This document shows, one piece after another, positions 1-18,285 of a DNA stretch of 64,000 nt; within the stretch, counting starts at the first letter, position 1; every line of letters starts with the position of its first letter. This DNA is from Marinobacterium stanieri. GTDB taxonomy: Bacteria > Pseudomonadota > Gammaproteobacteria > Pseudomonadales > Balneatricaceae. The stretch covers positions 62,001-126,000 of the forward strand of contig NZ_FTMN01000011.1 of assembly GCF_900155945.1 (NCBI RefSeq), given 5' to 3'. The translations under genes were made by a program, and so were the position numbers. The notes beneath the pieces were generated by a model. The model searched no databases. It was not told the DNA's origin and was given only the letters and a program-made list of their open reading frames with translations.

Positions 1-608
1 CTTCGGGCAATCTTTGGCGCAAGCCGGGTTTACGCATCGGTTATATGCCACAGAAGCTGCATATCGATCATACACTTCCATTGTCAGTGGAACGTTTTCT
101 GCAAACACCGGTAAAAACCGATAAGCAGCTGATGATAAAGGCACTTGAGGATGTGGGAGCCGCCCACCTTATCAAACATTCCATCCACAATCTTTCGGGT
201 GGCGAGACCCAGCGGGTGCTGCTGGCCCGCGCACTGCTGCGCGACCCTCAGTTGCTGGTGTTGGATGAACCCGTACAGGGTGTGGACCTGAGCGGTCAGC
301 TTGAGCTGTACCAACTGATTGCCGATATTCGCAAACAGCGCCATTGCGGCGTGCTGATGATCTCCCATGATCTGCACCTGGTCATGGCGTCTACCGACCA
401 TGTCATCTGCCTGAATCGACATATCTGCTGCTCGGGCAATCCCGAACATGTCAGCAACGATCCGTCATTCATTGAGCTGTTTGGCCCCGCACAGGCCAGT
501 ACCCTGGCACTGTACAACCATCACCACAGCCACCAGCATGACGCCCATGGCGATATCATCGTCGACCACCCTCAACCCCATAATTGTGACGGACACCACT
601 GTGGCTGA
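1..608 (+). CDS. znuC: Zinc ABC transporter ATP-binding protein ZnuC (5' end outside window)
   Basis: ATPase subunit of the ZnuABC high-affinity zinc importer, acting at the cytoplasmic face of the inner membrane. The reading frame is open from base 3, so the N-terminus and Walker A lie to the left. Visible are the Q-loop region ([10 protein letters not shown]), the ABC signature LSGGE, Walker B (LLVLDEP), the D-loop and the H-loop histidine (ISHD). The last 30 or so residues are rich in His, Asp and Cys, as in several ZnuC proteins, and could bind zinc. The stop overlaps the start of znuB, implying translational coupling. Neighbour and sequence both favour zinc over manganese, but the solute-binding protein is not visible. 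Confidence 0.93.
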
Positions 609-1398
609 GTTTCTGATTCTGGCTCTGGCCGGCGGCCTGGGTATTGCAGCACTGGCCGGTCCGCTGGGCGCCTTTGTCGTCTGGCGCCGCATGGCCTACT
701 TCGGCGATACCCTGGCACACTCGGCACTAATGGGTATCTCGCTGGGTTTTCTGTTCGATATAAACCTGAACCTGGCCGTCGTTTTTTGCTGTGTCCTGCT
801 ATCGGTATTGCTGGTCAGCCTGCAGCGCCAGCATCTGGTCGCGACGGACACCCTGCTGGGGATCATGGCACATAGTTCACTATCGCTGGGCCTGGTCGCC
901 GTTGCCTTGCTGGATAACGTGCGAATCGACCTGATGGAATACCTCTTTGGTGATCTGCTGGCCATCGCGCCTGCTGATCTCTACTGGATTTATGGGGGCG
1001 GAGCACTGGTACTGCTGTTGCTCTGGCGCCTGTGGAACCCCTTGCTCGCCATCACCATCAACGAGGAACTGGCCCAGGTCGAGGGCGTCCCGGTTGCCCG
1101 CACCCGGCTGGCCCTGATGCTGCTGATTGCCGTGGTGATCGCTGTTGCCATGAAGCTGGTGGGCATTCTGCTGATCACCTCGCTGTTGATCATCCCGGCG
1201 GCTGCAGCACGGCGTCTGTCCAACACACCGGAGCAGATGGCCATTTTCGCATCGGTGCTGGGCATGCTGGCAGTGCTGGGCGGTATCAGCGCCTCCTGGT
1301 TCTGGGATACGCCGGCCGGCCCCTCGGTCGTGGTGACCGCCCTGATTGAATTCCTGCTGCTCTACACACTGCCGATCCGGGGCCTGCAGGCACGATGA
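601..1398 (+). CDS. znuB: Zinc ABC transporter permease ZnuB
   Basis: Membrane permease of the zinc importer, ABC-3 family. The frame is open further upstream, but the GTG at 601 is chosen because the protein then begins [12 protein letters not shown] and runs straight into the family-typical [20 protein letters not shown], giving 265 residues, the usual size. This start overlaps the znuC stop by 8 bases. The rest is a succession of hydrophobic helices, with the conserved region around [11 protein letters not shown] and the later [12 protein letters not shown]. It pairs with ZnuC; the periplasmic binding protein ZnuA is not in the window. Confidence 0.93.
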
Positions 1399-2741
1399 TC
1401 CAACCCGAACACTGGCCCGACCGCGCCACCCACAGCCGGGTCTGGGCGCTGGCCTGGCCGATGATGCTGTCCAACATCACCGTACCCGTGCTGGGGCTGG
1501 TAGATACCGCCGTGATTGGCCACCTGCCCGAGCCTCACCACCTGGGTGCCGTGGCGGTGGGCAGCATGATTTTCTCGATCCTCTACTGGGCCTTCGGGTT
1601 TCTGCGCATGGGCACCACCGGCATGGTGGCCCAGGCCTGCGGTCGCAATGATGGTGCCGCCATTCGCACACTCCTGGGCCAATCACTGGTACTGGGTGCA
1701 GTCATCGGTCTGGTGATCCTGCTGCTGCGCACTCCGCTGACTGAGCTGGCGTTGCAGCTGATGGACCCGGCGTCGGATGTCCTCGCCTCCGCCACTGAAT
1801 ATACCGCCATCCGCGCACTGGGTGCGCCCGCCGTACTCTGCAATTTTGCCCTGCTGGGCTGGTTTGTCGGCAACCAGAACACCCGCATTGCGCTGATATT
1901 GCTGACCAGTACCAACCTGCTGAACATGCTGCTGGATCTGCTGTTCGTGTTTGGCCTGGGAATGGCCGCCGACGGGGTTGCTCTGGCGACTGTCTGTGCC
2001 GAGTATTTCAGTCTGCTGTTGGGCCTCTGGTTCTGCCGCCGCATGCTGGCACGACTGCCCGGCGAATGGATCTGGCAGCGCCTGCGCCGGCTCAGTGATT
2101 ACCGTGAACTGATCAGCGTGAATCGCTACCTGTTCGTGCGTACTCTGCTGCTGTTGATGACGCTGGCCTTCTTTACCGCCCAGGGCGCACAACAGGGCAC
2201 TACGATCCTGTCGGCCAATGCCGTGCTGCTCAACTTCATGCTGCTAATCTCCAATGCTCTGGATGGCTTTGCCCATGCCACCGAAGCATTGACCGGCCGG
2301 GCACTGGGCCAGCGCCAGCGACGGCCGTTCTACCAGGTACTGGTATGTACTACGCTCTGGTCTGCGGTCAGTGCGGTACTGCTGACGCTGGTGTTCTGGC
2401 TTGGAGGCCAGCCGATCATCCACCTGCTCACCGATATTCCCGACGTGCGTGAAGCCGCGGTACGCTATCTGCCCTGGATCATTCTGCTGCCACTGGTCAG
2501 CACCTGGGGCTTCCTGCTGGATGGCATCTTCATCGGCACCACCCGCGTCAAGGCGATGCAGGATACGATGCTGGTCTCGGTGCTGCTGGTATTCGCACCT
2601 GTCTGGTGGCTCACACAGTCGATGGGCAATCAGGGGCTCTGGCTTTCCTTCCTGTGTCTGTTTGCCGCACGCGGCATCACCGGCGCCTGGGTGTTCTGGC
2701 GCCTGAACCGGCGCGATGCATGGTTTGAGCAGCGCACCTGA
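1395..2741 (+). CDS. MATE family efflux transporter, DinF type
   Basis: A 448-residue inner-membrane protein of the MATE family, drug/cation antiporters with about 12 membrane helices. The N-terminal segment (WPMMLSNITVPVLGLVDTAV, then IGHL) is characteristic of the DinF branch rather than NorM. The ATG overlaps the znuB TGA (ATGA), so the gene is translated as part of the znuCB transcript. In E. coli dinF follows lexA; coupling to a zinc importer is a different context and gives no direct clue to substrate. Assignment to the family is firm; the transported compound is unknown. Confidence 0.88.
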   Translation: MIQPEHWPDRATHSRVWALAWPMMLSNITVPVLGLVDTAVIGHLPEPHHLGAVAVGSMIFSILYWAFGFLRMGTTGMVAQACGRNDGAAIRTLLGQSLVLGAVIGLVILLLRTPLTELALQLMDPASDVLASATEYTAIRALGAPAVLCNFALLGWFVGNQNTRIALILLTSTNLLNMLLDLLFVFGLGMAADGVALATVCAEYFSLLLGLWFCRRMLARLPGEWIWQRLRRLSDYRELISVNRYLFVRTLLLLMTLAFFTAQGAQQGTTILSANAVLLNFMLLISNALDGFAHATEALTGRALGQRQRRPFYQVLVCTTLWSAVSAVLLTLVFWLGGQPIIHLLTDIPDVREAAVRYLPWIILLPLVSTWGFLLDGIFIGTTRVKAMQDTMLVSVLLVFAPVWWLTQSMGNQGLWLSFLCLFAARGITGAWVFWRLNRRDAWFEQRT

Positions 2742-4255: not shown

Positions 4256-6286
4256 TCAGCGAATACCGGAGTGACGCAGCAGGGCGTCCACACTGGGCTC
4301 ACGGCCACGGAAGGCAACGAACAGATCCATGGGATCACCGGAGCCACCCTGTTCCAGAATTTCCTGACGGAACGCCAGGCCCGTATCCGTATTAAAGATG
4401 CCTTCCTCCTCGAAGCGGGAGAATGCATCTGCAGACAGGACTTCGGCCCACTTGTAGCTGTAATAGCCTGCCGCATAACCACCGGCGAAGATATGGCTGA
4501 AGCCATGCTGGAAACGGTTTTCAGAAGGCGGACGAATCACCGCCACCTGGTCACGCACACGATCCAGTACCGCCTGAATTTCAGTTTCACCCGGCTGATA
4601 TTCATGGTGCAGACAGAAATCAAACAACGAGAATTCCAGCTGACGCATCATCATCATACCGGACTGGAAGTGCTTGGCTGCCAGCATCTTGTCGAGCAAC
4701 GCCTGCGGCAGCGGCTCGCCTGATTCGTGGTGACCGGAGATCAGCGCCAGCGCTTCCGGCTCCCAGCACCAGTTTTCCATGAACTGGCTGGGCAGCTCCA
4801 CCGCATCCCAGGCTACGCCGTTAATACCGCTGATATCCGCTTCTTCCATCTGCGTCAGCATATGGTGCAAACCGTGGCCGAACTCATGGAACAGCGTGGT
4901 CACTTCGTCATGGGTCAGCAGGGCCGGCTGGCCTGACAGCGGCGGGGTGAAGTTACACACCAGGTAGGCCACCGGCAGCTGCAGATCGGCATCGTTCAGG
5001 CGACGGCGCACACGGCAGTCATCCATCCAGGCACCGCCACGCTTGCCACTGCGGGCGAAGGGGTCCAGGTAACAGTAGGCCAGAGGTTCGCCGTTGCGCT
5101 TGAGCGCAAACAAACGGGCATCACTGTGCCAGCTGTCGAAATCCTGCTGCTCCTCGACCTCGATATCAAACAGACGGCCGGCAATGGTGAACATGCCGTC
5201 CAGCACTTTGGGCAACGGGAAGTAGGGGCGCAGTTCCTGCTGGGAGATTTCGTAGCGCGCCTGCTTCAGCTTCTCGCCGTAGTAGGTCACATCCCAGGCG
5301 TTCAGGGTGTCGATACCATCCTGTTCACGGGCAAAGGCCTGCAGTTCGGCCAGTTCCTGCTCCGCAACCGGTCGGGTTTCGGTGGCCAGGTCTTCCAGGA
5401 AGCTCACCACCTGCTGCGGTGACTGCGCCATCTTGGTCGCCAGCGAGTAATCGGCATAGGTATCAAAGCCCAGCAACTTGGCCATCTCGTGGCGCAGATC
5501 CAGAATTTCGGTCATTACCGCAGAGTTGTCCCACTCACCGGCCTTGGGCCCCTGATCAGAGGCGCGGGTGCTGAACGCACGGTAAAGTTCTTCCCGCAGG
5601 CTGCGGTTATCGGCAAAGGCCATCACGGCATAGTAGGCGGGGAAGTCCAGAGTGATCACCCAGCCATCCACGTCTTTGGCCCGGGCGGCTTCTTTCGCGG
5701 CGGCAATGGCATGCTCGGGCAGGCCAGACAGTTCCGCTTCATCGCTGATCTCTTTCCACCAGCCCTGGGTCGCATCCAGAACATTTTCGGCGAACTTGGT
5801 GGTCAGCTCGGACAGGCGCTGCTGCAGCTCGGCATAACGCTTCTGCTGCGCTTCCGGCAGGGCAATGCCGGACAGACGGAAATCGCGCAGGGCGTTATCC
5901 ACCACCTTGCGGCGTGCCGGGCTCAGCTGCTGGTAGGCATCGCTGCCCGCGAGGGATTCAAAGGCCTTGAACAGGCCCTGATGCTGACCCAGTTCGGTCC
6001 AGTATTCAGACAGCTTGGGCAGGCAGGCGTTATAGGCTTCGCGCCATTCATCGGAGTTCATCACCCCGTTCAGGTGCGATACCGGTGACCAGGCCTGCGC
6101 CAGCTCGTCATTGAGCTGCTCAAGCTCGGCCACCAATGCCCAACCACTGACCGCTTCATCGGCAGTCAGCTCGGCAATACGGCTGCGGTTCCGCGCCAGC
6201 AATTCGTCAACGGCAGGTTCGGCATGTTCCGGCAGAATACGGCTGAACGGCGGCAGCAGATGGCGTTCGAGCAGGGGGTTGGACAT
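4256..6286 (-). CDS. prlC: Oligopeptidase A (M3 metallopeptidase)
   Basis: Cytoplasmic zinc metallopeptidase that degrades short peptides, including cleaved signal peptides. At 676 residues it has the family's usual length. The zinc site is intact: H467-E-F-G-H471 with the following GLHHML, and a downstream glutamate-containing segment (INGVAWDAVELPSQF). The N-terminal helical half (SNPLLERHLLPPF) matches OpdA/PrlC. It is divergent from the carbonic anhydrase gene, with about 100 bp between them for both promoters, and is followed by yheV. Confidence 0.96.
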   Translation of the reverse strand: MSNPLLERHLLPPFSRILPEHAEPAVDELLARNRSRIAELTADEAVSGWALVAELEQLNDELAQAWSPVSHLNGVMNSDEWREAYNACLPKLSEYWTELGQHQGLFKAFESLAGSDAYQQLSPARRKVVDNALRDFRLSGIALPEAQQKRYAELQQRLSELTTKFAENVLDATQGWWKEISDEAELSGLPEHAIAAAKEAARAKDVDGWVITLDFPAYYAVMAFADNRSLREELYRAFSTRASDQGPKAGEWDNSAVMTEILDLRHEMAKLLGFDTYADYSLATKMAQSPQQVVSFLEDLATETRPVAEQELAELQAFAREQDGIDTLNAWDVTYYGEKLKQARYEISQQELRPYFPLPKVLDGMFTIAGRLFDIEVEEQQDFDSWHSDARLFALKRNGEPLAYCYLDPFARSGKRGGAWMDDCRVRRRLNDADLQLPVAYLVCNFTPPLSGQPALLTHDEVTTLFHEFGHGLHHMLTQMEEADISGINGVAWDAVELPSQFMENWCWEPEALALISGHHESGEPLPQALLDKMLAAKHFQSGMMMMRQLEFSLFDFCLHHEYQPGETEIQAVLDRVRDQVAVIRPPSENRFQHGFSHIFAGGYAAGYYSYKWAEVLSADAFSRFEEEGIFNTDTGLAFRQEILEQGGSGDPMDLFVAFRGREPSVDALLRHSGIR

Positions 6287-6386
6287 CAGACTCTCTCCAA
6301 TATGGATCGGCTTTCAGGGTGTATACGTCAATTACTATACAATGGGGCTCAGGTAAGTCGATTTCAATCAGCATCAGGAGAGCCTC

Positions 6387-6926
6387 ATGAACGTACGACC
6401 CTACCAGGGGATGACCCCGCAACTGGCTGACAATGTGTTTGTGGACCCCAGCGCTGTGGTTCTGGGGGATGTAGAGATCGGCGAGCACAGTTCCGTCTGG
6501 CCCATGACCGTGATTCGGGGTGACATGCATCGCATCCGTATCGGTCGCTACTCCAGCATCCAGGACGGTTCGGTGCTGCACATTACCCATGCAGGCCCCT
6601 ATAACCCGGACGGCTTCCCGCTGATTCTGGGGGATCATGTCACCGTCGGCCATCAAGCCATGTTGCACGGTTGTACCCTGGGCAGTCGTATTCTCGTCGG
6701 TATGGGCGCCATGATCATGGATGGTGCCGTGGTTGAAGACGAAGTGATCATCGGCGCAGGTAGCCTGGTTCCGCCCGGCAAAACACTGAAAAGCGGCTAT
6801 CTCTATGTAGGACGCCCGGCCAAGCCCCAGCGTGAACTGACGCAGAAAGAGAAGGAATTCTTCACCTACACCGCTGAAAATTACGCCCGCCTGGCAGCCA
6901 AGCATCAGGCAGAAGACTGGGCCTGA
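6387..6926 (+). CDS. Gamma-class carbonic anhydrase family protein (YrdA-like)
   Basis: A 179-residue left-handed beta-helix protein built from hexapeptide repeats (for example VVLGDVEIGEHSSVWP). The three expected metal-ligand histidines are present, in VLHITHAG, VTVGHQA and MLHGC. Gamma-CA homologues such as YrdA, CaiE and PaaY occur as trimers; many lack strong measured carbonic anhydrase activity, so catalysis is inferred. A CAGGAG ribosome site precedes the ATG. It is transcribed alone, with its own terminator immediately after. Confidence 0.88.
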   Translation: MNVRPYQGMTPQLADNVFVDPSAVVLGDVEIGEHSSVWPMTVIRGDMHRIRIGRYSSIQDGSVLHITHAGPYNPDGFPLILGDHVTVGHQAMLHGCTLGSRILVGMGAMIMDGAVVEDEVIIGAGSLVPPGKTLKSGYLYVGRPAKPQRELTQKEKEFFTYTAENYARLAAKHQAEDWA

Positions 6927-6944
6927 TTAAAGAATAAGACACTG

Positions 6945-6969
6945 ACCGGCCCCAGGGCCGGTTTTTTTG
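6945..6969 (+). terminator. Rho-independent terminator after the gamma-CA gene
   Basis: G/C-rich hairpin (ACCGGCCC / GGGCCGGT) followed by seven or eight T residues, 18 bp after the stop codon. It separates the gene from the iron-regulated operon. Confidence 0.88.
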
Positions 6970-6983
6970 ACCTCAAGCAAATA

Positions 6984-7008
6984 ATACTATTGATAACGAT
7001 TTGCATTT
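6984..7008 (+). promoter_or_regulatory. Fur-box-like operator upstream of the imelysin operon
   Basis: TGATAACGATTTGCA at 6991-7005 fits the 7-1-7 Fur recognition pattern TGATAAT-N-ATTATCA at about 11 of 14 positions, within an A/T-rich leader about 45 bp before the imelysin start. The second site at 13136, a closer match in the same cluster, supports iron regulation. The call rests on motif similarity only. Confidence 0.6.
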
Positions 7009-7050
7009 AGTTTATTGTGATTTGATAAATTCAGATCTAAGGAAGCAGTC

Positions 7051-8364
7051 ATGTCACTTAAACGCCTTCTGCTGCCGGCCGCTATCGCAGCTGCCGTCAT
7101 GTCCCCGCTTACACCGGTTGCCATCAGCCAGGCCAGTGCCGCCACGGCGACCGTCGAAGCACAAGCCAACAGCGTAAACACCCACTACGCCGACATTGCC
7201 GAAGCCGTTTTTGCCGACTCCCTGAGCGCTGCCAAACAACTGCAGCAGGCCATCAACACGCTGCTCGATGATCCCACTGACGCCAACCTTGCTGCGGCCC
7301 GTGAAGCCTGGGTCGCCGCGCGTGTGCCTTATCAGCAGTCCGAGGTTTACCGTTTCGGCAATGCCATCGTGGATGACTGGGAAGGCAAGGTAAACGCCTG
7401 GCCGCTGGACGAAGGCCTGATCGATTACGTCGATACCACTCATTACGGTACCGAATCCGACTTCAACGGCTGGTACAGCGCCAACATTATCGCCAACCCC
7501 GAGCTCAACATCGGTGGCAAGTCTGTTGATGCCTCCACCATCGACAAGGCGCTGCTAGCCGAAACCCTGCACGAGATCGACGGCGTCGAGGCTAACGTGG
7601 CTACCGGTTACCACGCCATTGAATTCCTGCTCTGGGGCCAGGATCTGAACGGTACCAACAAGGGTGCCGGCAACCGTCCTGCCAGCGATTTTGATGCCGA
7701 CAACTGCAGCAACGGCAACTGCGAACGCCGTCGCGACTACCTGAAAGCCGCCACCGAGCTGCTGATCGATGATCTGACCGAGATGGCCGATGCCTGGAAA
7801 ACCGGTGGCGAAGCACGCCAGCAATTGATGGCAAAAGGCGAGCTGGGTGGTCTGGCCACCATCACCACCGGTATGGGCAGCCTGTCCTACGGTGAGCTGG
7901 CCGGTGAGCGCACCAAGCTGGGTCTGATGCTGCATGACCCGGAAGAAGAGCATGACTGCTTCTCCGACAATACCCACTGGTCGCACTACTATGACGCCCT
8001 GGGTATCCGTAACGCTTACCTGGGTGAATACAGCCGTATTGATGGCAGCCAGGTAACAGGGCCGTCCCTGTCCGATCTGGCCAAGGCTGCTGACCCGGCA
8101 TTGGACCAGAAGATGCGTGACCACCTGAATGCGACTCAGGCCGCCGCTCAGGCGATGGTCGATGCTGCCAAGCAGGGTGAAACCTTTGATGTACTCATTG
8201 CCGCCGGTAACACCGAAGGCAATGCCAAGGTACAGGCATTTGTTGATGCCCTGACCGAGCAAACACAGGTCCTCGAAGAGGTGATGGCAACACTGGGTAT
8301 TTCCGATGTGGAACTGGAAGGTTCCGACAGTCTGGATAATCCCTCAGCTGTTCTTGGCGGCTGA
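7051..8364 (+). CDS. Imelysin family periplasmic protein (IrpA/IcmP type)
   Basis: A 437-residue exported protein with a signal peptide of about 30 residues (cleavage probably near ISQASAA). It carries the imelysin/M75 signature GxHxxE as G186-Y-H188-A-I-E191, followed by FLLWGQD. Known members are IrpA of cyanobacteria and IcmP of Pseudomonas; they are iron-regulated and appear to bind or deliver iron rather than act as clear peptidases. An insertion after the motif contains two Cys in a CSNGNCERRR segment. The start is supported by an AAGGA site. It is the first gene of a tightly packed operon behind a Fur-like box. Confidence 0.9.
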   Translation: MSLKRLLLPAAIAAAVMSPLTPVAISQASAATATVEAQANSVNTHYADIAEAVFADSLSAAKQLQQAINTLLDDPTDANLAAAREAWVAARVPYQQSEVYRFGNAIVDDWEGKVNAWPLDEGLIDYVDTTHYGTESDFNGWYSANIIANPELNIGGKSVDASTIDKALLAETLHEIDGVEANVATGYHAIEFLLWGQDLNGTNKGAGNRPASDFDADNCSNGNCERRRDYLKAATELLIDDLTEMADAWKTGGEARQQLMAKGELGGLATITTGMGSLSYGELAGERTKLGLMLHDPEEEHDCFSDNTHWSHYYDALGIRNAYLGEYSRIDGSQVTGPSLSDLAKAADPALDQKMRDHLNATQAAAQAMVDAAKQGETFDVLIAAGNTEGNAKVQAFVDALTEQTQVLEEVMATLGISDVELEGSDSLDNPSAVLGG

Positions 8365-8372
8365 ATGACTCG

Positions 8373-9809
8373 ATGACCCGTTATGCACACAGTCTGACAG
8401 GCTGGCTCTCCCTCTGGCTGGCGTTGTGCACCAGCCAGGCCGCTATGGCAGTGGCGGCCGAACCGAGCCGGGCTCTACCTGATGAGGGTAAGCCCGGTTC
8501 TTCTTTTTCAGTCGCCGAGCGCAAGGCCTTCATGCAACCGATGGCACAGATCGGTTTCGATACCCGCATGGACTTCGTGCTGGGCCGCGCCATATTTGAA
8601 AAAATCTGGGTGCCCTCGCCTTCATCCACTACCGCCAGTGATGGCCTGGGGCCGCTCTACAACGCCCGCTCCTGCCTGCAGTGCCACATCAATAATGGCC
8701 GTGGCTTGCCGCCCGACGAGCAGGGCAGTGCCAACCGCAACGGACTGCTGATTCGGCTGGGCATCCCCGGAGATGGCCACAATTCGCCTCTGGGCGTCAC
8801 CCCTGAGCCTACCTACGGCACTCAGCTGCAGACCTTTGCTGCCACTGGCCTGCCGGCCGAAGCGCGGATCAATGTACGCTACCGTACCCGACTCGTCGAA
8901 CTCAACGGGGGTGAGCAGGTTGAACTGCGCCAGCCCGAGTACCGGCTCAGCCAACCGGGCTATGGCAACTTCCATCCGGACTTGCAGCTGTCACCACGCC
9001 TGGCACCGGCCATGATCGGCCTCGGACTGCTGGAACAGATCCCGGAAGCCGATATCCTGGCGCAGGAAGACCCTGATGACCGTGACGGAGATGGTATCTC
9101 CGGGCGCGCCAACCGGGTATTTCATCCTGAATACGAACAGCCACAACTGGGCCGTTTTGGCTGGAAAGCCGGAGCACCCTCTCTGCAGCTGCAAAATGCC
9201 AGTGCGTTGAATACAGACCTGGGTATTTCCAACCCCGACTACCCCATGGCGGCAGGGGACTGCACAGCCCGGCAACCGGGATGCCTTAAGGCGCCTCACG
9301 GCAACACTGAGTTGCAGGGCGGTTTTGAGGCCTCAGCCCAAATGATGGATGTGTTACTGTTTTATACACGACATTTGGCGGTACCCGCGCGCCGTAACCG
9401 CGACCAGCCGGACGTTAAAGCCGGTGAGCAGCTGTTTACGGCAATCGGCTGTGCCAGCTGCCACACCCCTATACAGAGGACGGGCAACAACCCGGCACTG
9501 CCGGCGCTGAGCGAACGCCGCCTTGAGCCCTATACCGATCTGCTGCTGCATGACATGGGCGAAGCCTTGGCTGACCAGCGTCCCGAATTCGGTGCCAATG
9601 GCCATGAGTGGCGTACCCCGCCGTTGTGGGGTCTGGGCCTTCATCAGGCCGTTACCGGCGAACGGGCACTGCTGCATGATGGCCGCGCGCGCACCCTGGC
9701 GGAAGCCATCCTCTGGCATGGCGGTGAAGCCGAATCTGCACGTGAGCGTTTCCGCCAACTGTCTCCACATGCTCGTAAGCAACTGATCCTGTTTCTGGAG
9801 TCACTTTGA
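8373..9809 (+). CDS. Di-haem oxidoreductase family protein (DUF1111)
   Basis: A 478-residue exported c-type cytochrome of the DHOR/'thiol oxidoreductase' family. A signal peptide occupies roughly the first 28 residues. Two haem c attachment sites are visible: C101-L-Q-C-H105 and C360-A-S-C-H364. Family segments include FDTRMDFVLGRAIFEKIW, DGLGPLYNARSC, DRDGDGISGRANRV and the C-terminal RTPPLWGLG and LLHDGRARTLAEAILWHGG. These proteins resemble di-haem peroxidases in fold; the reaction is not established. It starts 8 bp after the imelysin gene, and its TGA overlaps the next ATG. Confidence 0.9.
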   Translation: MTRYAHSLTGWLSLWLALCTSQAAMAVAAEPSRALPDEGKPGSSFSVAERKAFMQPMAQIGFDTRMDFVLGRAIFEKIWVPSPSSTTASDGLGPLYNARSCLQCHINNGRGLPPDEQGSANRNGLLIRLGIPGDGHNSPLGVTPEPTYGTQLQTFAATGLPAEARINVRYRTRLVELNGGEQVELRQPEYRLSQPGYGNFHPDLQLSPRLAPAMIGLGLLEQIPEADILAQEDPDDRDGDGISGRANRVFHPEYEQPQLGRFGWKAGAPSLQLQNASALNTDLGISNPDYPMAAGDCTARQPGCLKAPHGNTELQGGFEASAQMMDVLLFYTRHLAVPARRNRDQPDVKAGEQLFTAIGCASCHTPIQRTGNNPALPALSERRLEPYTDLLLHDMGEALADQRPEFGANGHEWRTPPLWGLGLHQAVTGERALLHDGRARTLAEAILWHGGEAESARERFRQLSPHARKQLILFLESL

Positions 9810-10879
9810 TGCAACCGATTCATACTCGCCGGTGGCCACGAGGCCTGCTGGCGTCCACAGTGATGTTCATGTCCAGCCTGGCCTGCGCGGCGACACCGGA
9901 CTGGTCCCACTACAACTATCAGGCGGTCCAGCAGCATGTGCTGCCGCGTTATGCGGCTCTGGACGAAGCCAGCGCAGCGCTGTCAGCCTCAGCCCAAACC
10001 TTCTGTGCGGCCCCTTCGGAAGCGGGGCTGGTGCAAGTGCAGGACCAGTGGCGCCAGACCATGCTGAGCTGGCAGGGCATACAGCACGTTCAGTTTGGCC
10101 CGGTGCAGTTTCTGATGCGTAACTTTGGCCTCCAGTTCTGGCCTGACCGCAAGAACATCGGCGCCCGCCAGCTCCGTCAGGCTCTGGCGAGCGACCAGCC
10201 CTATGATGCCGAATTCTTCCGCCATGCCAGTGTCTCCATTCAGGGCTTCCCGGCGCTGGAACGACTGCTGTTTGCCGATAACGCCCTGCAAACGCTGCAA
10301 AACGGTCGCGGCTGTGAACTGACCCAGGCCATTGCCGGCCATGTCGCGCAGATGAGCCATGCCATTCACAGCGAATGGTCAGCACAGGCCAAAAGCGATT
10401 TTCAGCCCGAGCAGGATCCGGATGTTGCCGCTGAACTGGCAGTGGAGCTGATGGCATCTCTGGTGGAACCCATCGAAGCCATTCGCGACAGCAAGCTGCT
10501 CAAGCCCATGGCTGAGTCTGCCGAATCCGCCCGTCCCAAATTGCTGGAAAGCCATCGCAGCAGTGCCTCACTGGCTAACATTCGGGCCAATCTGGAGGCG
10601 TTGAACGCGCTCTACCAGGGCACTGATCCCAGCGTGCGCAGCCTGCTGGAGGAGGCAGGGTCAGAACAGCTGGCCAAGGATATTGCCGAGCGTTTTGAGC
10701 ACATCAACGCCCAGCTGGACGCTGTTCAGGGGCCGTTGAAGCAGGCCGTCACCCGGGCTGAAACCCATACCCGCCTGCTGGGCGTTGCCACATCGCTGAA
10801 ACAGCTGAGTGAACAGCTGGATACCGCCATGGAAGTGCTGAACATCCAATTGGGGTTCAACAGCCGTGATGGAGACTAA
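9809..10879 (+). CDS. Second imelysin-like protein, signature His missing
   Basis: A 356-residue exported protein of the imelysin family, with a signal peptide ending near SLACA. The ATG at 9809 overlaps the upstream TGA and is preferred to an in-frame TTG three bases earlier. At the place of the GxHxxE signature it has G146-F-P-A-L-E151, followed by RLLF: the glycine and glutamate remain but histidine is replaced by proline. Pairing of a canonical and a divergent imelysin occurs in related iron-regulated clusters. It may have a structural or partner role instead of direct metal binding; that is inference. Confidence 0.82.
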   Translation: MQPIHTRRWPRGLLASTVMFMSSLACAATPDWSHYNYQAVQQHVLPRYAALDEASAALSASAQTFCAAPSEAGLVQVQDQWRQTMLSWQGIQHVQFGPVQFLMRNFGLQFWPDRKNIGARQLRQALASDQPYDAEFFRHASVSIQGFPALERLLFADNALQTLQNGRGCELTQAIAGHVAQMSHAIHSEWSAQAKSDFQPEQDPDVAAELAVELMASLVEPIEAIRDSKLLKPMAESAESARPKLLESHRSSASLANIRANLEALNALYQGTDPSVRSLLEEAGSEQLAKDIAERFEHINAQLDAVQGPLKQAVTRAETHTRLLGVATSLKQLSEQLDTAMEVLNIQLGFNSRDGD

Positions 10880-11993
10880 TCGCCGCCGTTTCCTGAGCCT
10901 TCTGGCCGCGGGTTGCCTGCTGCCTGCCACCCGTGTCCTGGCCAGTGGCACAACCACAGGGCAGACCGATGCAGGCCTGCTCGTCAGTGCCGCCAGTGAC
11001 CGGCGCCAGCACTGGCTGCTGGTAACCGATGCCGAAGGGCAGACGCAACTGCGCTACCCGCTGCCCGAGCGTGCCCATCACGTGGAACTGCATCCGCAGC
11101 AGCCCTGGGCAGCCGCCGTTGCACGTCGCCCGGGCCGGTTTATTGAGATAGTCGACTATCACAGCGGTCAGCAGGTTCAGCGGGTGGATGCAGGGGAGGG
11201 GCATCACTTTTTTGGCCACGCCCTGTTCACTCCCGATGGCCACTGGCTGGTCAGCACCGAGAACGATATCGCCAGCGGGCAAGGCCAGATCGTCATTCGT
11301 GATGTAAGCAATCACTTCGCCGAGGTAAGCCGTACACCAAGCTATGGCATTGGCCCCCATGAGCTGCTGCTGAATGGCAACCAGGTCCTGGTCGCCAACG
11401 GCGGTATCCTTACACACCCGGATCATGGCCGTGAGAAACTTAACCTGGACAGCATGCAGCCCAGCCTGGCCTATATCGACTTGAAGTCGGGTGATCTGCT
11501 GGAACAGGTGAGCATGAGTGCGGATAACCACCAGCTCAGCATCCGCCACATGGATCAAAGTGCTGCGGGTACCGTAGCCATTGCCTTGCAGTACCAGGGT
11601 GCCATCAGCGACAACAAGCCACTGGTTGCCGTCCACCGCCGGGGCGAGCCTCTCAAGCTGCTGCGCGCACCTGAGCCGATCAACAACCAGATGGAGCAGT
11701 ATGCCGGCAGTGCCCGTATCGACCGATCCGGACGGGTTGCGGCGATCTCGGCGCCACGCGGTAACCTGATCACCTTCTGGGATATTGAACAGGACCGCTT
11801 TATCAACGCCATGCGCTGTCGCGACGGCTGCGGCCTGGCGGCAACAGACCAGGCTGGTGAGTTTCTGGTGAGTTCAGGATTGGGCCACCTGTACCGCATG
11901 CGTCCTCTGGATAACCTGCGCGAGCGCCTGCCACTGGACCCAATCGCCGCCCAATTAGCCTGGGACAACCACATGAATCTGCGTTTGGGCTAG
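10869..11993 (+). CDS. DUF1513 domain protein with Tat signal
   Basis: A 374-residue protein of the DUF1513 family, predicted beta-propeller-like and of unknown function. The N-terminus METNRRRFLSLLAAG is a twin-arginine signal (RRxFL pattern), suggesting folded export, possibly with a cofactor or metal. The ATG at 10869 is chosen over the GTG three bases earlier; it overlaps the preceding imelysin-like gene by 11 bases. Repeated segments such as GHHFFGHALFTPDGHWLVS, IGPHELLL and RSGRVAAISAPRGN look like propeller blades with conserved His. In related genomes DUF1513 genes occur in imelysin clusters, so a shared role in iron handling is likely. Confidence 0.82.
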   Translation: METNRRRFLSLLAAGCLLPATRVLASGTTTGQTDAGLLVSAASDRRQHWLLVTDAEGQTQLRYPLPERAHHVELHPQQPWAAAVARRPGRFIEIVDYHSGQQVQRVDAGEGHHFFGHALFTPDGHWLVSTENDIASGQGQIVIRDVSNHFAEVSRTPSYGIGPHELLLNGNQVLVANGGILTHPDHGREKLNLDSMQPSLAYIDLKSGDLLEQVSMSADNHQLSIRHMDQSAAGTVAIALQYQGAISDNKPLVAVHRRGEPLKLLRAPEPINNQMEQYAGSARIDRSGRVAAISAPRGNLITFWDIEQDRFINAMRCRDGCGLAATDQAGEFLVSSGLGHLYRMRPLDNLRERLPLDPIAAQLAWDNHMNLRLG

Positions 11994-11995
11994 GA

Positions 11996-13123
11996 ATGTC
12001 ATCCAAATGGACCTACCGACGACTGATCTGCACCTTAAGTCTGCTGTTATATCTGGGTATTCCGCATCAGGCATGCTCCAGCACTTTTTCCGCCGAAGCC
12101 TACCGCCAGCCACCTGAACGCTGGCCAGCAGCAACCACCCACCCGGAAGCAGGCAAGGTGCCAGAATTGGCCCCTCTGCCTCCATTGCCGCCTGAGGACT
12201 GGCATACTCCTGCCAGTGAAGCACTAGGGCGGCAACTATTCTTCGACCCACGCCTGTCGGGCTCAGGCCAAGTTGCCTGTGCCAGCTGCCATGACCCGGA
12301 CCTGGGCTGGGCTGACGGCAGGCGTGTTGCATTCGGCCATGACCGCCAAAGCGGAACCCGCAACAGCATGAGCATCCTCAATGCCGCCTGGTTCGATCAG
12401 CTGTTCTGGGATGGCCGTGCCGGTGGTCTGCTGGATCAGGCACTGCAACCGATCACCAACCCGATAGAGATGAACGCCAACCTGGAGGACGTCCTGTCCC
12501 GGCTCAACCGTATTCCGGGCTACCGCCAGGCCTTCAGTGCAGCCTTCGGTGTAGGCCCTATCGACGCCGATCAGCTGGCCAAGGCCCTGGCGGCTTTCGA
12601 ACGCCGCATCGTTTCCCGACCCAATCGGCTGGACCGTTTCATCAGCGGGCAATATGACGCCCTCAACGATCAGGAGATCTTCGGCTTGCACCTGTATCGC
12701 ACCAGGGCCGGGTGCCTCAACTGCCATAACGGCTCACTGTATTCGGACGGCCAGTTCCACCATACCGGCCTGAGTTACTACGGTCGTCAATACCAAGATA
12801 TCGGTCGCGAACTAGCCACCGGGCAGGCGGCAGATCGCGGTAAGTTCCGTACGCCCAGCCTACGCGACCTGGCCTATACGGACCCCTGGATGCATAACGG
12901 TTTATTCCCCAGCCTGCGCGGCATCCTCAACATGTACAACGCCGGCATGATCGGCAGCAGCCAGCTGCACCCGGACCTGCCACCGCTGTCACCACTGATT
13001 CGCCCTCTGCAGCTGGACACTGCGGAGCTGAATGCACTAGAGGCATTTCTCGCCAGTCTCAGCCACCGACCTTTGAAGCTACGGCCCCCGGAGTTGCCAA
13101 CTGGAATCCCGCAGAAGGAATAG
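11996..13123 (+). CDS. Di-haem cytochrome c peroxidase / MauG-like protein
   Basis: A 375-residue exported di-haem protein. After a hydrophobic N-terminus it shows the family opening ALGRQLFFDPRLSGSG, haem site C95-A-S-C-H99, and a second site C240-L-N-C-H244. KFRTPSLRDLAYTDPWMHNG is the usual C-terminal signature. Classical CcpA proteins reduce hydrogen peroxide in the periplasm; MauG relatives use the same fold to oxidise protein substrates. The iron-regulated context with a second di-haem enzyme makes a specialised role plausible. It begins 2 bp after the DUF1513 stop and is the last gene before the second Fur-like box. Confidence 0.88.
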   Translation: MSSKWTYRRLICTLSLLLYLGIPHQACSSTFSAEAYRQPPERWPAATTHPEAGKVPELAPLPPLPPEDWHTPASEALGRQLFFDPRLSGSGQVACASCHDPDLGWADGRRVAFGHDRQSGTRNSMSILNAAWFDQLFWDGRAGGLLDQALQPITNPIEMNANLEDVLSRLNRIPGYRQAFSAAFGVGPIDADQLAKALAAFERRIVSRPNRLDRFISGQYDALNDQEIFGLHLYRTRAGCLNCHNGSLYSDGQFHHTGLSYYGRQYQDIGRELATGQAADRGKFRTPSLRDLAYTDPWMHNGLFPSLRGILNMYNAGMIGSSQLHPDLPPLSPLIRPLQLDTAELNALEAFLASLSHRPLKLRPPELPTGIPQKE

Positions 13124-13129
13124 CCAACC

Positions 13130-13156
13130 CTCAAATGATAATGATTATTGTGTTTA
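13130..13156 (+). promoter_or_regulatory. Fur-box-like operator upstream of the TonB receptor
   Basis: TGATAATGATTATTG at 13136-13150 matches the 7-1-7 Fur consensus fully in the left arm and at five of seven positions in the right arm. It lies just after the peroxidase stop and about 105 bp before the receptor start, in an A/T-rich stretch that differs from its surroundings. This suggests the receptor can be transcribed separately under iron control. Confidence 0.75.
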
Positions 13157-13256
13157 ATTAGTTTATTATCCCTATGGCTGCCGGCTATTCTATTGCGCCC
13201 CAGGAATGGCCGCAACCACATAGCACTCCCCCCATGTTTGCCTGTAAAGGGATGAT

Positions 13257-15743
13257 ATGCGATCTCACAACGCCTTAACGCCATTCATCGCGGTCCTGGC
13301 GGGGCTATATGCCACCCCGGCAGCGGCCGACACCGCCGCGAAGACCAGTAACACTTGTAACCAGGATCAATCGGACACCTGTATGCAGACACTGCCGGAC
13401 GTCACCGTCACCGGTCGTGAAATCGCTTTCGGTCTGCAGGTCATCAATCAGGAACTGATCGAGCAGCTGCCCACCGGAGAGGGTAACCTGGCCGACCTGC
13501 TGCGTACCAACCCGGCGGTGGACTTCTCTCGCAACGGCCGAAGCTCGGCAAACAGTGGCGTAATGCGTCCAGAAGAGTTCTCCTTTCATGGTCAGGCGTA
13601 CTACCAGAACCTGTTCATGATTGACGGCATCGACACCACCAGCGATATCAACCCCGGCTCCGGCGGCGACCTGTTCAGCAGCCCTAGTCTGACCGGTGTG
13701 ATAGGTGGCAGCTCGCCCCAGGGCTACTATCTGGACGTGGACCTGCTGGAACAGATCGAAGTCTACGACAGCAACGTGCCCGCCAGCTTCGGCGGCTTTA
13801 CCGGCGGGGTGGTCAGCGCCAAGGTCAAGCGTTACGACGGCAACGACTTCGTCGACCTGCGCTACGGCATCCAGCGTGACGAATGGGAGTCTTTCCATAT
13901 CGACGAACGTGACCAGGAAGAGTTCGACACAGCTGACAGCTATGGTGCGGAATACACCCCTATTTATCGCAAGGACAACTACACCCTGTCAGCTCAACAG
14001 GGCATCGGTGAGGATACCGGACTGACCCTAGGTGTCAGCCGACGCAGCTCCAGCTTCCTGCAAAGCTACAGTGATGGTCTAGACAGACTGCACCGGGTTT
14101 ACTATGACGACCGAATCAACAACCTGCACGCCAAGCTGGATCACCGCTGGCATGAGCGACTGCACACCAGCTTCAGCCTGAGACATTCCGATCGTAGCCA
14201 TGACGGTCTGACTTCCACTCGCTATGACGACATGTTCACCAAGAGCCATGGCGGCTGGGGCTTGGGCGGCAATCTGGAATACACGCTCGACTCCGGTGCA
14301 CGCTTCAACCTCGACATGGCGATGGATCGCATGAGCGACGAACTGGACAGCGGCAGCAACCTGTTCACCCGCCACGAGTCACTTGAAGGCATCCTGCCAA
14401 CCCAGTCCGGAGGCTATGGCGATACCACCCAGCGACAGACTGCCTTTTCCCTGTCGCCCGAACTGGAGCTGGCCCCCATGTCCTGGGGCAGCAGCCGCCA
14501 TAACCTGATCGTCGGAGGCGACCTGAAATACACCGAAAGCTTCTATGAGCGACCTGAGGGTGCTTTCTTCCGTGAATACAGCTGCCTTTCCGACAGCGAC
14601 ATCAACGGCTGTATTGACCAGAATGGCAGTGGTGACAGTGACTTCGGCGATGAATATCTGGCCCGTGCCTTCGATTATGGCGCCGGCAAAGTTTCTCTGG
14701 ACTACACCACTGCCGCTTTGTACGTGGATGACCATATCGAACAAGGTAACTGGCAATTCCGGCTTGGCCTGAGAGCTGATTACAACAGCTGGCTGGAAAA
14801 TCTGGACATGGCCCCACGACTAAGTGCGACCTGGGATAGCTTCGGTGACGGAAGCACCCGACTGACAGCCGGCGCCAACCGTTATTACGGTCGCAACTTC
14901 CTGCGCTATGCCATCAATGATGTGATTAAAAGCTGGAACACGCTCACCTTTTATGACACCAATGGCAACATCACCCGAGAAACTACATACGATGACAGCT
15001 CTCGCAACAATAGCCTGGCCACCCCCTATTCAGATGAACTGATGCTGGGTTGGGCACAACGCATGGGGCCATTTAACAGCCATCTGAAATTTGTTCACCG
15101 CGCCAGCCGTGACAGTATTCGCCGAATCGAAGACGGTGATGGCAAATATTACTATGACAATACTGGCCGCAACGATACCGACAGCCTTACCTGGACCTTG
15201 GATCATGCCGATCACCCTCTAAAGCTGGCAGGCAGTGAAACCATTACCAGCTTGTCGGTCGGCTGGAAACAGACCGAAACGGACCTCCAGAGCGACGATG
15301 CATATGATCAAGAGCCCGAACCGGTCTATTATGAGGGGCGCGTTATCGACGGCAGCGAGCTTCCTGCCTGGGATTACAATATTCCGCTCAATATCAGCCT
15401 GAGCACCCAGACCCGAGTCCCGCACTGGCATTTGACCTGGTCAAACTTTGTCAGCTTGCGAAGTGGAAGCACTATTGCCCGTGACAGCGGCGATAGCTAC
15501 ACCGATAGCAATGGCAATCGCTACGATGTCTATGAAGACTACACGCTTGCAGATTTGGTAACGCTCGACACCAAAGTACTTTGGAAACCTCGTCTATGGT
15601 CATCTCAGCAGGGGTATATGATGATCGAGGTAAGCAACCTTTTCGATCAATCGATCAGCACTAAAACCAGCCGCTTTGACAGTATCAGTGACAGCTATAC
15701 CCCTGGACGCAAAGTCTGGCTGGAAGTGGGAATGCGATTCTAG
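13257..15743 (+). CDS. TonB-dependent outer-membrane receptor
   Basis: An 828-residue outer-membrane receptor with a signal peptide (cleavage near TPAAA) and a TonB-box-like segment at residues 46-53 (LPDVTVTG). A plug domain follows to about residue 200 (NLADLLRTNPAVDFSR, QNLFMIDGIDTTSD, then LLEQIEVYDSNVPASFGGF), then a long beta-barrel ending in phenylalanine. Cys pairs occur near residues 34 and 42 and in an Asp-rich loop encoded around 14580-14640. The substrate cannot be read from sequence; the Fur-like box and neighbours suggest an iron complex or haem. No siderophore biosynthesis or ABC importer genes are adjacent. Confidence 0.9.
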   Translation: MRSHNALTPFIAVLAGLYATPAAADTAAKTSNTCNQDQSDTCMQTLPDVTVTGREIAFGLQVINQELIEQLPTGEGNLADLLRTNPAVDFSRNGRSSANSGVMRPEEFSFHGQAYYQNLFMIDGIDTTSDINPGSGGDLFSSPSLTGVIGGSSPQGYYLDVDLLEQIEVYDSNVPASFGGFTGGVVSAKVKRYDGNDFVDLRYGIQRDEWESFHIDERDQEEFDTADSYGAEYTPIYRKDNYTLSAQQGIGEDTGLTLGVSRRSSSFLQSYSDGLDRLHRVYYDDRINNLHAKLDHRWHERLHTSFSLRHSDRSHDGLTSTRYDDMFTKSHGGWGLGGNLEYTLDSGARFNLDMAMDRMSDELDSGSNLFTRHESLEGILPTQSGGYGDTTQRQTAFSLSPELELAPMSWGSSRHNLIVGGDLKYTESFYERPEGAFFREYSCLSDSDINGCIDQNGSGDSDFGDEYLARAFDYGAGKVSLDYTTAALYVDDHIEQGNWQFRLGLRADYNSWLENLDMAPRLSATWDSFGDGSTRLTAGANRYYGRNFLRYAINDVIKSWNTLTFYDTNGNITRETTYDDSSRNNSLATPYSDELMLGWAQRMGPFNSHLKFVHRASRDSIRRIEDGDGKYYYDNTGRNDTDSLTWTLDHADHPLKLAGSETITSLSVGWKQTETDLQSDDAYDQEPEPVYYEGRVIDGSELPAWDYNIPLNISLSTQTRVPHWHLTWSNFVSLRSGSTIARDSGDSYTDSNGNRYDVYEDYTLADLVTLDTKVLWKPRLWSSQQGYMMIEVSNLFDQSISTKTSRFDSISDSYTPGRKVWLEVGMRF

Positions 15744-15757
15744 TTAATCAAACTCTA

Positions 15758-15798
15758 TTACCCGGCTGGTGGGCTATCCCACCCATTAGCCGGGTTAT
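15758..15798. terminator. Hairpin between the TonB receptor and the Lon-like gene
   Basis: Long inverted repeat with ACCCGGCT / AGCCGGGT outer arms and GGTGGG / CCCACC inner arms, between two convergent genes. It is flanked by A/T-rich bases on both sides and probably serves both directions. Confidence 0.75.
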
Positions 15799-15809
15799 AG
15801 TGCCCAGAT

Positions 15810-18182
15810 TTACGCCTTGGCCTTGGCGATCTCCCGCAAGCGTTTCACCACCTGTGCATTGATACTGCGCTGGGTGAAATGGCCATCGTCCTTGAGTACA
15901 CCGGCCGTGCGGCCCATCAAAATCTCAAGACAGTCGTCCACCGTGGACACCGCATGGATATGGAACATGCCATCCTCCACGGCCTGAACCACTTCTGCCT
16001 TGAGCATCAGATGGCGTACATTGGCCTTGGGAATGACACAGCCCTGCCAACCGGTCAGGCCTCGGGTTTTACACAGGTGGAAGAAGCCTTCAATTTTCTC
16101 GTTTACGCCACCAATCGCCTGCACCTCACCATACTGGTTGATCGAGCCGGTGATGGCGTACTGCTGGCGAATGGGGATATGGGTGAGTGCCGAGATCAGA
16201 GCGCAGATTTCAGCCAGAGAGGCACTGTCTCCGTCCACATAGCCATAGGACTGCTCCATGGCCAGACTGGCCGAGAGCGCCAGCGGGAAGTCACCGGCAT
16301 AGGTGTGACCGAGGAAACCGGACAGGATCAGGACCCCCTTGGAGTGAATCGGCTGCCCCAAAGTAACCTCACGTTCGATATCGATAATGCCCTTGTTACC
16401 CGGATGTACCGTAGCAGTGATGCGTGCCGGGCTACCGAAGGAGACATCGCCCACCTGCAGCACCGTCAGGCCGTTGGCCTTGCCTACGGCTTCCCCGTCG
16501 GTGTCGATCAACACCGTTTCATTGAGGATGCTTTCCAGTATTTTCTGTGACAGCCGGCCGGTACGACGCTCCTTGGCTTCCAGCGCCAGCTCCACATGTT
16601 CGGCGTTGATCTGGGTGTCACCCTGTTCACGACGACGAAAATCCGACTCGCACAGCAGGTCCACCAGCTCTCCTACATGCGCCGACAGCAGATCCTGATC
16701 ACCCGACAGCCTTGAACTGTGCTCCACCAGACGGGCAACGGCACGGCGCGTCAGAGGCGCCAGGTTTTCTTCCGTAGCCAGCGTTTTCATCAAACGGGCA
16801 TACTGGCGAATGGAGTGGGGCGTACGGTGCACATCCTCATCGAAGTCCACCACTACACGGAACATCTTCTCGAAGTCATGATCCAGCTCCTGCAGTAGAT
16901 AGTAGGTATCCCGTTCACCTACCAGAACCACTTTCACTTTCAGCTTGGCCGGCTGGGGACTGAGGGTAATGGCGCTGATACCGGTGTATTCGCTGACCGG
17001 ATTTTCGATGCGAATCTCGTGCGATTTGAGCGCGCGTTTGAGCGCGCCATAAACGAACGGCTGCTCCAGCAGCTTTTCCGCTTCCAGCACCAGGTAGCCG
17101 CCATTAGCGCGATGCAGGGCACCGGAACGAATCAGCGTGTAGTTGGTGACCATCGCCCCCATGTCACTGATGTATTCCACCCGGCCAAACAGGTTTTCAT
17201 AACTGGGATGCGCCTCGAACACCACCGGCGCACCTTTGGTCTTGTGATTGTCGACCAGCAGATTGAGCCCGTAGTTACGCTCAAGATAGTCGCGCCGCAT
17301 GGCATCGGTCTTGGCTTCCAGCGGGTTGTCATCATTGACGATCTCGCCGGCGTTGCGGATCAGGTCCGATTCAACATGCTTCAGGTAGTCGACAATGCAT
17401 GAGATGTTGGCGTACTTGTCGCGCAGGGGCTGCAGCAGCGGCGACACTGCCTGGCGCGCGGTATTACGATCCAGCGTTTCTATCCGCTCCGAGGCTTCAC
17501 GACGCCACACCGGCAGCTCGGTCAGGCTATCGTTGAGCATCTCCTCCAGCTCGGAGATATGTGCCTGAATGGCATCCCGCTCCTCCTCGGGTAACTGCGA
17601 GAACGCCGCCTCATCAATGGCCTGGCCATTGGCGACCGGGGTAAAGCCGACGGTAGCCCCATCACGAAAGACGGCAATGTTGTATTCGCGTCCCTTGCGC
17701 TCCACCTGATTCAAGGCTTCGTCATAGTGGCCGTTGAATTCTCGCTCGATCTGGCTCTTCATGCGTTGATAGGCCGGATTCTCGAACGCGGCCGGCAACT
17801 CGGCCAGCACCCGGTCGAGCAGGTGGCGAATATCACGTTTAAGCTGATTGGCACGCCCGGAAGGCAGTTCCAAAATAACGGGGTAGCGGTTATCGCTGAG
17901 GTTGTTGATGTAGCACCAGTCACTGGGCTTGTGCTGTTTTTTCGCCGATGCCTTGAGGCTTTCCATGGCAAAGGAGAAGCGGCCGGTATGCGGGTTGCCC
18001 ATAACGAAGAGGTTATACCCCGGACGTTGCATGCCGATGCCAAAGGCCATGGCTTCGATGGCCCTTTCCTGGCCAAAGAATCCGGAGAAGGGTTCCAGCG
18101 ACTCGGTCGTTTTGAACGGCAGGAGTTCAGGGTCGCAGCGGCAGTAGAGCGCCTCGGGCGCCAGCGGCAGATGCTTGTCCAT
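15810..18182 (-). CDS. Lon-like ATP-dependent protease (COG1067 type)
   Basis: A 790-residue AAA+ protease-like protein. The start at 18182 (MDKHLPLAPEALYCRCDP) is chosen over a further upstream start because GGAG lies just ahead of it. The C-terminal Lon protease domain is intact: serine S653 in GDSASLAE and lysine K696 in NEKIEG give the 43-residue Ser-Lys spacing seen in Lon. The expected N-terminal Walker A reads GNPHTGRFS, lacking the usual lysine, as in other degenerate Lon-like relatives. Substrates are unknown. It is separated from aroE by about 100 bp on the same strand. Confidence 0.88.
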   Translation of the reverse strand: MDKHLPLAPEALYCRCDPELLPFKTTESLEPFSGFFGQERAIEAMAFGIGMQRPGYNLFVMGNPHTGRFSFAMESLKASAKKQHKPSDWCYINNLSDNRYPVILELPSGRANQLKRDIRHLLDRVLAELPAAFENPAYQRMKSQIEREFNGHYDEALNQVERKGREYNIAVFRDGATVGFTPVANGQAIDEAAFSQLPEEERDAIQAHISELEEMLNDSLTELPVWRREASERIETLDRNTARQAVSPLLQPLRDKYANISCIVDYLKHVESDLIRNAGEIVNDDNPLEAKTDAMRRDYLERNYGLNLLVDNHKTKGAPVVFEAHPSYENLFGRVEYISDMGAMVTNYTLIRSGALHRANGGYLVLEAEKLLEQPFVYGALKRALKSHEIRIENPVSEYTGISAITLSPQPAKLKVKVVLVGERDTYYLLQELDHDFEKMFRVVVDFDEDVHRTPHSIRQYARLMKTLATEENLAPLTRRAVARLVEHSSRLSGDQDLLSAHVGELVDLLCESDFRRREQGDTQINAEHVELALEAKERRTGRLSQKILESILNETVLIDTDGEAVGKANGLTVLQVGDVSFGSPARITATVHPGNKGIIDIEREVTLGQPIHSKGVLILSGFLGHTYAGDFPLALSASLAMEQSYGYVDGDSASLAEICALISALTHIPIRQQYAITGSINQYGEVQAIGGVNEKIEGFFHLCKTRGLTGWQGCVIPKANVRHLMLKAEVVQAVEDGMFHIHAVSTVDDCLEILMGRTAGVLKDDGHFTQRSINAQVVKRLREIAKAKA

Positions 18183-18285
18183 GCGCGTACTCCACAGCAG
18201 AGGGTCTGCCTCTGTTATACCGCCTCGCATTTGCCGGATGCAAGGCGGTGAGTGAAAACGCGTTGAGATTCAGCTGACTAGCTGA

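Follow-up and report, generated by a model that had tools for sequence, protein, structure and literature searches.

The handling of iron by imelysins, DUF1111 and DUF1513 proteins, and the substrates of FusA-family receptors with their processing, are the two subjects that meet in a cluster of six genes for exported proteins in Marinobacterium stanieri, located on the plus strand at 7051-15743 of a 64,000-nucleotide stretch (contig NZ_FTMN01000011.1, positions 62,001 to 126,000; the whole stretch is called the window below). Pfam matches and coordinates bear out the six genes, positions and families given in a first-pass annotation, which had read them as a self-contained periplasmic machine. 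We find instead two separable modules, each of which also occurs alone at the same chromosomal site. Module A (imelysin, DUF1111, second imelysin, DUF1513) is of the known Fur-regulated PA4370-4373 type, and module B, judged from its sequences, is a MauG-type di-haem enzyme with a TonB receptor of the FusA/YddB family. Because both parts are separately known and separable, their joint layout is a new combination and not a new kind of machine. Our tentative reading, which we put somewhat below an even chance, is that two iron-starvation modules work in line, B importing and oxidatively opening an iron-bearing protein or large ligand and A capturing the iron.

Two modules at one chromosomal site

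The separation is seen within the genus. The site lies between opdA/gamma-carbonic anhydrase and lonB/aroE, with the orthology of its flanks checked by tblastn in six relatives. Here the core (module A) stands alone in G274 and G275, the receptor-enzyme pair (module B) stands alone in G279, and both are present in G000, G276, G277 and G278. All eight genus genomes searched hold DUF1513; orthologues of the receptor (at least 58% identity) and of the enzyme (at least 79%) are found in the same five of them, with core and pair adjacent in four of these five. The G279 core lies on another contig and belongs to another lineage, with 31-53% identity to that of the window. Since the modules occur singly or together at one site, we regard the core as one unit, the pair as another and their union as facultative. 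The genus, with either module or both at a single site, offers a natural experiment on whether the core acts downstream of a Fus-type receptor.

The assignment of module A follows from its gene types: an imelysin with the GxHxxE motif, a DUF1111 protein and a second imelysin lacking the motif His, in one operon as judged by spacing. Imelysin A matches PDB chain 7xrx, an insulin-cleaving metalloproteinase of the outer membrane (E 1.5e-119). With the EfeO model of the EfeUOB system it scores 15.3 against 270 bits. PA4373 is presumably the DUF1513 member of the Pseudomonas aeruginosa operon. In the relevant passages of PMC3143127, PA4370-PA4373 forms one operon under Fur control, encoding two proteins like imelysin and a homologue of EfeB termed DUF1111, and a second imelysin class without the motif His is described; the IPPA protein has Pro in place of this His (PMC9174327).

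In wider samples it is this core that recurs. Our named loci were the best 80 of 556 confirmed, and being chosen as best-matching they lean to near relatives; seven with less than 4.5 kb upstream were left out, leaving 73 testable. The four core families occur together at 68 of these 73 (the incomplete ones being L117, L133, L142, L144 and L147), and the core-bearing loci, going by their titles, belong to Gamma-, Alpha- and Betaproteobacteria. A FusA-type receptor stands beside module A at two of the 73, both from Marinobacterium; the count refers to FusA-type receptors. Among the loci examined, the co-occurrence that the first-pass annotation made its test is therefore absent for a six-gene unit outside the genus and present for the four-gene core. 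At one locus from an uncultured gammaproteobacterium (L104, 11113-13302) a different TonB receptor of ordinary type directly follows DUF1513.

An even sample of the class was scored for the core as well. DUF1513 was above the cut-off in 17 of 274 genomes, our own included. Besides that of the window the sample held 15 loci, two of them too short (L037, L047), and nine of the remaining 13 carry the complete four-gene core. The misses are L041, without imelysin A, L049 and L050, with DUF1513 alone, and L043 (1-12665), where the imelysin locus is rearranged, has two DHOR genes and carries ABC (ATP-binding cassette) importer genes amid the core genes. L055 was left uncounted, as its DUF1513 match is weak and qualifies only through the neighbouring genes, and four weaker matches fell below the cut-off.

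The distribution of the modules also feeds an alternative that we consider possible though doubtful, namely that core and pair are neighbours only: independent iron-starvation systems sharing a Fur-controlled site, with no common pathway. The finding of core alone, pair alone and both at the same site is what it would predict, and the G279 pair has a Fur-like box of its own while its genome keeps a core of another lineage on another contig. Base composition leans the same way, the G+C of the receptor (0.555) being slightly lower than that of the other five genes (0.588-0.615; window, 0.571). The layout of the genes argues against mere neighbourhood. The MauG-type gene of the window starts 2 nucleotides (nt) past DUF1513, and core and pair adjoin in four of the five genus genomes having the pair. 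In addition, a MauG/peroxidase-type gene lies near the core at ten of the 73 named loci, only two of them from Marinobacterium, although the enzymes at the other eight belong to other clades. As for spacing, the first five genes are packed tightly, as first annotated (an 8 nt gap, overlaps of 1-4 nt and 11-14 nt, and a 2 nt gap); the receptor does not share this packing, being set apart by 133 nt (Table 1). Signal peptides of the cluster proteins were assigned by eye.

Table 1. Genes and Fur-like boxes of the cluster, followed by upstream genes, in window coordinates
Feature	Position	Strand	Matches and motifs
Fur-like box TGATAACGATTTGCA before imelysin A	6991-7005		11/14 to 7-1-7 consensus
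Imelysin A	7051-8364	+	PF09375, E 4e-88; ICMP/IrpA type, canonical GxHxxE (GYHAIE at residue 186)
DHOR/DUF1111 di-haem protein	8373-9809	+	PF06537, E 9e-89; two CXXCH (residues 101, 360)
Imelysin B	9806 (TTG start) or 9809 (ATG) to 10879	+	PF09375, E 1e-53; variant motif GFPALE, IPPA/PA4372 type
DUF1513 protein	10866 or 10869 to 11993	+	PF07433, E 1e-100; Tat-type signal
MauG-type di-haem enzyme (CCP_MauG)	11996-13123	+	PF03150, E 4e-54; two CXXCH, Tyr314 at MauG Tyr294 position
Fur-like box TGATAATGATTATTG before TonB receptor	13136-13150		12/14 to 7-1-7 consensus
TonB-dependent receptor, FusA/YddB family	13257-15743	+	Plug PF07715, E 3e-9
ABC-transporter ATPase fragment	3-608		
ABC-3 (ZnuB-type) permease	448-1398		
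MatE efflux protein	1395-2741		

The receptor and its MauG-type partner

Only two sequences in the PDB match the receptor at E <=1, both over nearly its full length: the TonB-dependent outer membrane receptor 6ofr (E 1e-85, residues 65-828) and the ferredoxin receptor FusA, 4zgv (E 2e-72, residues 49-825). We take 6ofr to be YddB of E. coli. This agrees with the YddB structure in PMC6793856. The receptor gene has a MauG-type neighbour at 11 of 15 FusA-like loci (the window, L051-L054, L063-L067 and L069), five of which are orthologues within the genus and the other six L063-L067 and L069. When the class sample was searched with receptor profile A3, four of 369 genomes besides our own, which was the fifth, passed E 1e-40, a lower bound since no more than two candidates per genome were scored, and three of the four have a MauG-type neighbour (L066, L067, L069). 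A paralogous receptor-enzyme pair at L063 (7791-15923) shares one strand with genes for FecR, for an extracytoplasmic function (ECF) sigma factor and for the ATPase, permease and binding protein of a FecCD-type ABC importer.

Two further loci, L061 (2809-3858, same genus) and L062 (710-1669, same family), have FusA-family receptors followed by a ChaN-type haem-binding protein and no MauG-type enzyme. These ChaN-type neighbours hint at a haem-linked cargo.

PMC6793856 (2019) describes FusA relatives as widespread and often accompanied by an M16 protease, with FusC in 12 of 24 receptor clusters. In multiple cases lacking FusC, cytochrome c peroxidase genes are reported there, perhaps reducing the imported protein to release iron. 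The redox step on an iron-bearing ligand that the first-pass annotation envisaged is thereby supported as a published idea. Among the nine proteins at 4256-18230 we found no M16 protease of FusC/PqqL type, the search for M16 being confined to these nine, and none of the nine had a TonB-domain match of the kind that a TonB-like FusB would give.

Taken alone, the window enzyme finds cytochrome c peroxidases as its best PDB matches, whereas profile A2, with four core-linked sequences among its members, puts MauG chains at the top. By alignment the enzyme appears to be of MauG type, with two CXXCH motifs and a Tyr at the axial ligand position, residue 314 aligning with MauG Tyr294 (position counted by hand). 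It scores 217.7 bits with the MauG model TIGR03791 (cut-off 443.85) and 188.6 bits with the MbnH model TIGR04039 (cut-off 362.85); being under both NCBIfam cut-offs, it is filed as neither MauG nor MbnH.

A tree of 50 rows, left after 12 duplicates had been dropped from 62, groups the window enzyme with 12 others (clade support 99/95), and 11 of these 13 stand beside a FusA-like receptor; the branches of L155 and L067 are long. Near cores elsewhere, most MauG-type genes form a separate clade (11 rows, 100/100) and L084 falls in a third group, and the enzymes of MauG/peroxidase type beside imelysin cores stem from at least three branches. A further gene of the core-linked clade lies unlinked on contig C17 of our own genome (L183, 1731-2882) and perhaps acts with the core in trans. 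The aligned Tyr is shared by all 13 members of the receptor-linked clade, a new observation made by alignment, and by all 11 of the core-linked clade.

According to the relevant part of PMC7567364, Tyr at this position marks MauGs, and Met or His is found there in peroxidases. The Tyr, a single aligned residue, hints at oxidation rather than reduction, contrary to the 2019 proposal. That proposal, made by Grinter and colleagues in section 6 of PMC6793856, has the di-haem enzyme act as a reductant on the iron protein after import; with a MauG-typical Tyr better suited to an oxidant, as far as one residue can suggest, we rate it as very unlikely for this cluster. That the enzyme is a plain peroxide-removing cytochrome c peroxidase we find hardly credible: the top PDB matches of the window protein do point that way, but the axial Tyr, the preference of profile A2 for MauG, the frequent pairing with a receptor and the Fur-like control of a haem enzyme all speak for another role.

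Maturation deserves more weight, though we still think it improbable. Here the MauG-type enzyme would modify Trp or Tyr in a partner, be it the receptor, an imelysin or DUF1513, and not an imported cargo. The model is MauG acting on methylamine dehydrogenase, with a like role proposed for MbnH/MopE-type pairs, and the invariant ligand Tyr and the ranking by profile A2 are in keeping with it. In its favour, too, passages of PMC3621798 describe MbnH/MbnP as a MauG-like di-haem protein and a partner that binds metal, in many cases with a TonB receptor close by. The cluster itself offers less: none of its six proteins matches the MbnP family (NCBIfam, E 0.1), and the enzyme stays under the MauG and MbnH cut-offs. 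The Trp of FWDGRA, present in 13/13 of the receptor-linked clade, is also found in 26/26 background rows and so does not discriminate. Finally, the pair lacks an adjoining core in G279, G302 and others, which makes the receptor the enzyme's most constant partner (11 of 13).

Fur-like boxes and inner-membrane importers

The receptor has a Fur-like box of its own, as first annotated: TGATAATGATTATTG is the top 7-1-7 match of the window, and TGATAACGATTTGCA ties with two other window sites. As a control we scored 20 Markov windows, in each of which the top 7-1-7 score was 10-12. Against a 19-base consensus the second box reaches 14/19, tied with an unrelated site at 43875 and inside the Markov range of 12-14. 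As these scores are weak by themselves, it is the position before genes, together with conservation, that carries the Fur claim. The first box recurs upstream of imelysin A in all five same-site Marinobacterium relatives holding module A, being identical in L052, L053, L054 and L056 and differing by one base in L057; in L058, which has a more distant core, the best box before imelysin A is only 9/14. Boxes before the receptor score 12/14 in L051, 11/14 in L052 and L054 and only 10/14 in L053, and the G279 pair has a box of 13/14 before its MauG-type gene. An iron-limitation role for the cluster is supported by these boxes, as far as sequence can speak, by the Fur-regulated PA4370-4373 operon and by the dipyridyl induction of related genes in Leptospira.

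Where the iron might go is suggested by relatives. The first-pass annotation noted no inner-membrane importer, which is correct for the cluster itself; beyond it, an ABC-3 permease is encoded in the window, ABC importer genes follow the operon or interrupt it in two relatives, and our own genome holds a pair of such genes elsewhere. Genes for a solute-binding protein and for the permease and ATPase of an ABC system begin within 23 nt of the L046 core; an importer immediately behind module A, seen in this one relative, is a new observation. In L043 binding-protein, permease and ATPase genes lie between core genes (the ATPase in both loci recognised by sequence). We take this system to be a ferric importer of Fbp type. 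The ABC genes of L046 and L043 are, on their sequences, our best hint of the iron's destination. Homologues of the L046-type binding protein and permease (46% and 49% identity) occur elsewhere in our own genome, in which, as the one genome searched, no FTR1/EfeU permease (PF03239) was found. The ABC-3 permease of the window, which lies with an ATPase fragment and a gene for MatE efflux some 4.3-7 kb before the cluster, represents an inner-membrane metal importer, by family probably for zinc.

A possible pathway and its known relatives

Two modules in line could work as follows, where we infer the substrate class, the redox direction, the hand-over between modules and the importer. An iron-bearing protein, or some other large ligand that carries iron, would pass the outer membrane through the FusA/YddB-type receptor. 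In the periplasm the MauG-type enzyme, through peroxide-derived high-valent haem, may oxidise this cargo and release iron or a cofactor, a task that falls to the FusC/PqqL protease in classical Fus systems. Once the iron is free, its redox state would be set by the DUF1111 di-haem protein, either bound to the DUF1513 propeller or acting together with it, and both imelysins would bind the iron and carry it to an inner-membrane importer, presumably of the ferric-iron ABC kind seen in some relatives.

The DUF1513 protein adds a structural element. Its Tat (twin-arginine translocation) twin Arg, R6 R7, is invariant in 16 sequences and found in 92% of 50 rows, a few rows starting after it. We modelled the protein as a seven-bladed beta-propeller with six invariant His on inner strands; the model is new here, and the di-haem fold of DHOR is, like the propeller, a predicted one. 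The open-licence literature searched makes no mention of DUF1513, and for a family of unknown function the model offers a concrete, mutable His site. More speculatively, and we think it unlikely, DUF1513 and the DUF1111 protein could form a propeller/di-haem complex, comparable to the beta-gamma part of hydrazine synthase or to MauG with methylamine dehydrogenase, in which the six His would form a metal site at the hub, for loading and oxidising iron before it goes on to the imelysins. This would be an unrecognised redox iron-extraction enzyme, widespread in Proteobacteria; in Marinobacterium, the receptor and the MauG-type enzyme would supply it directly with iron proteins from outside.

Several points weigh against the two modules working in line. 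Sister genomes carry the modules singly at the same site, and the adjacency of A and B is seen in one genus only. Homology to FusA/YddB, a matter of sequence, is no proof of protein import, and E. coli YddB/PqqL gave no growth support under iron limitation in LB in the experiments described in PMC6793856. Four FusA-like loci are without a MauG-type gene (L060, L061, L062, L068), and L151 and L155, of the receptor-linked clade, have no receptor-profile match in their 20 kb surroundings (L180, L181). MauG/peroxidase homologues occur in 117 of 229 class genomes (E 1e-20) and are so common that single adjacencies mean little; the ligand Tyr is also present in 17 of 26 background rows, with gaps in the other nine. 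On the side of the core, PMC3143127 reports that specific binding of the ligands tried was seen with neither of its two imelysin-like proteins. Neither Fur-like box outscores what 64 kb Markov windows yield, the FbpAB-like pair of our own genome has no convincing Fur box (best 10/14) and no ATPase gene seen beside it, and ferric iron as the cargo of such ABC systems is our own reading of their sequences.

Both halves of the cluster have counterparts in print, so that the first-pass statement of an undescribed joint mechanism holds only in part; what is new is A joined to B. The open-licence literature searched, which excludes subscription papers and supplementary tables, yielded no paper joining imelysin with YddB or ferredoxin uptake, and the main text of PMC6793856, its supplementary gene-context table apart, mentions neither imelysin nor MauG. 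Module A resembles PA4370-PA4373 of P. aeruginosa and VC1264-1266 of V. cholerae in its GxHxxE and His-less imelysins, its DUF1111 protein and, going by the conserved Fur-like box, its putative iron control; the passages of PMC3143127 on the former name PA4370, PA4371 and PA4372 by type and leave a MauG-type gene and a FusA-type receptor unmentioned. The LruB operon of Leptospira shares with the window the core gene types, as imelysin-DHOR-imelysin genes induced under iron limitation by dipyridyl, and a TonB receptor close by, and a core beside a receptor is for this reason not unique to the window. In the parts of PMC13066512 that describe it, DUF1513 is unmentioned and mauG1 is reported elsewhere in the genome.

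Module B shares its MauG-type di-haem enzyme with the MbnH/MbnP and MauG/methylamine dehydrogenase systems, in both of which a partner protein is taken to be the target of the di-haem protein; unlike these, the cluster has no MbnP match and no mau gene was seen in it. Its closest likeness is to the FusA/YddB receptors with cytochrome c peroxidase neighbours, variants of the Fus and YddB-PqqL systems, from which the window pair differs in adjoining an imelysin core and in the MauG Tyr of its enzyme.

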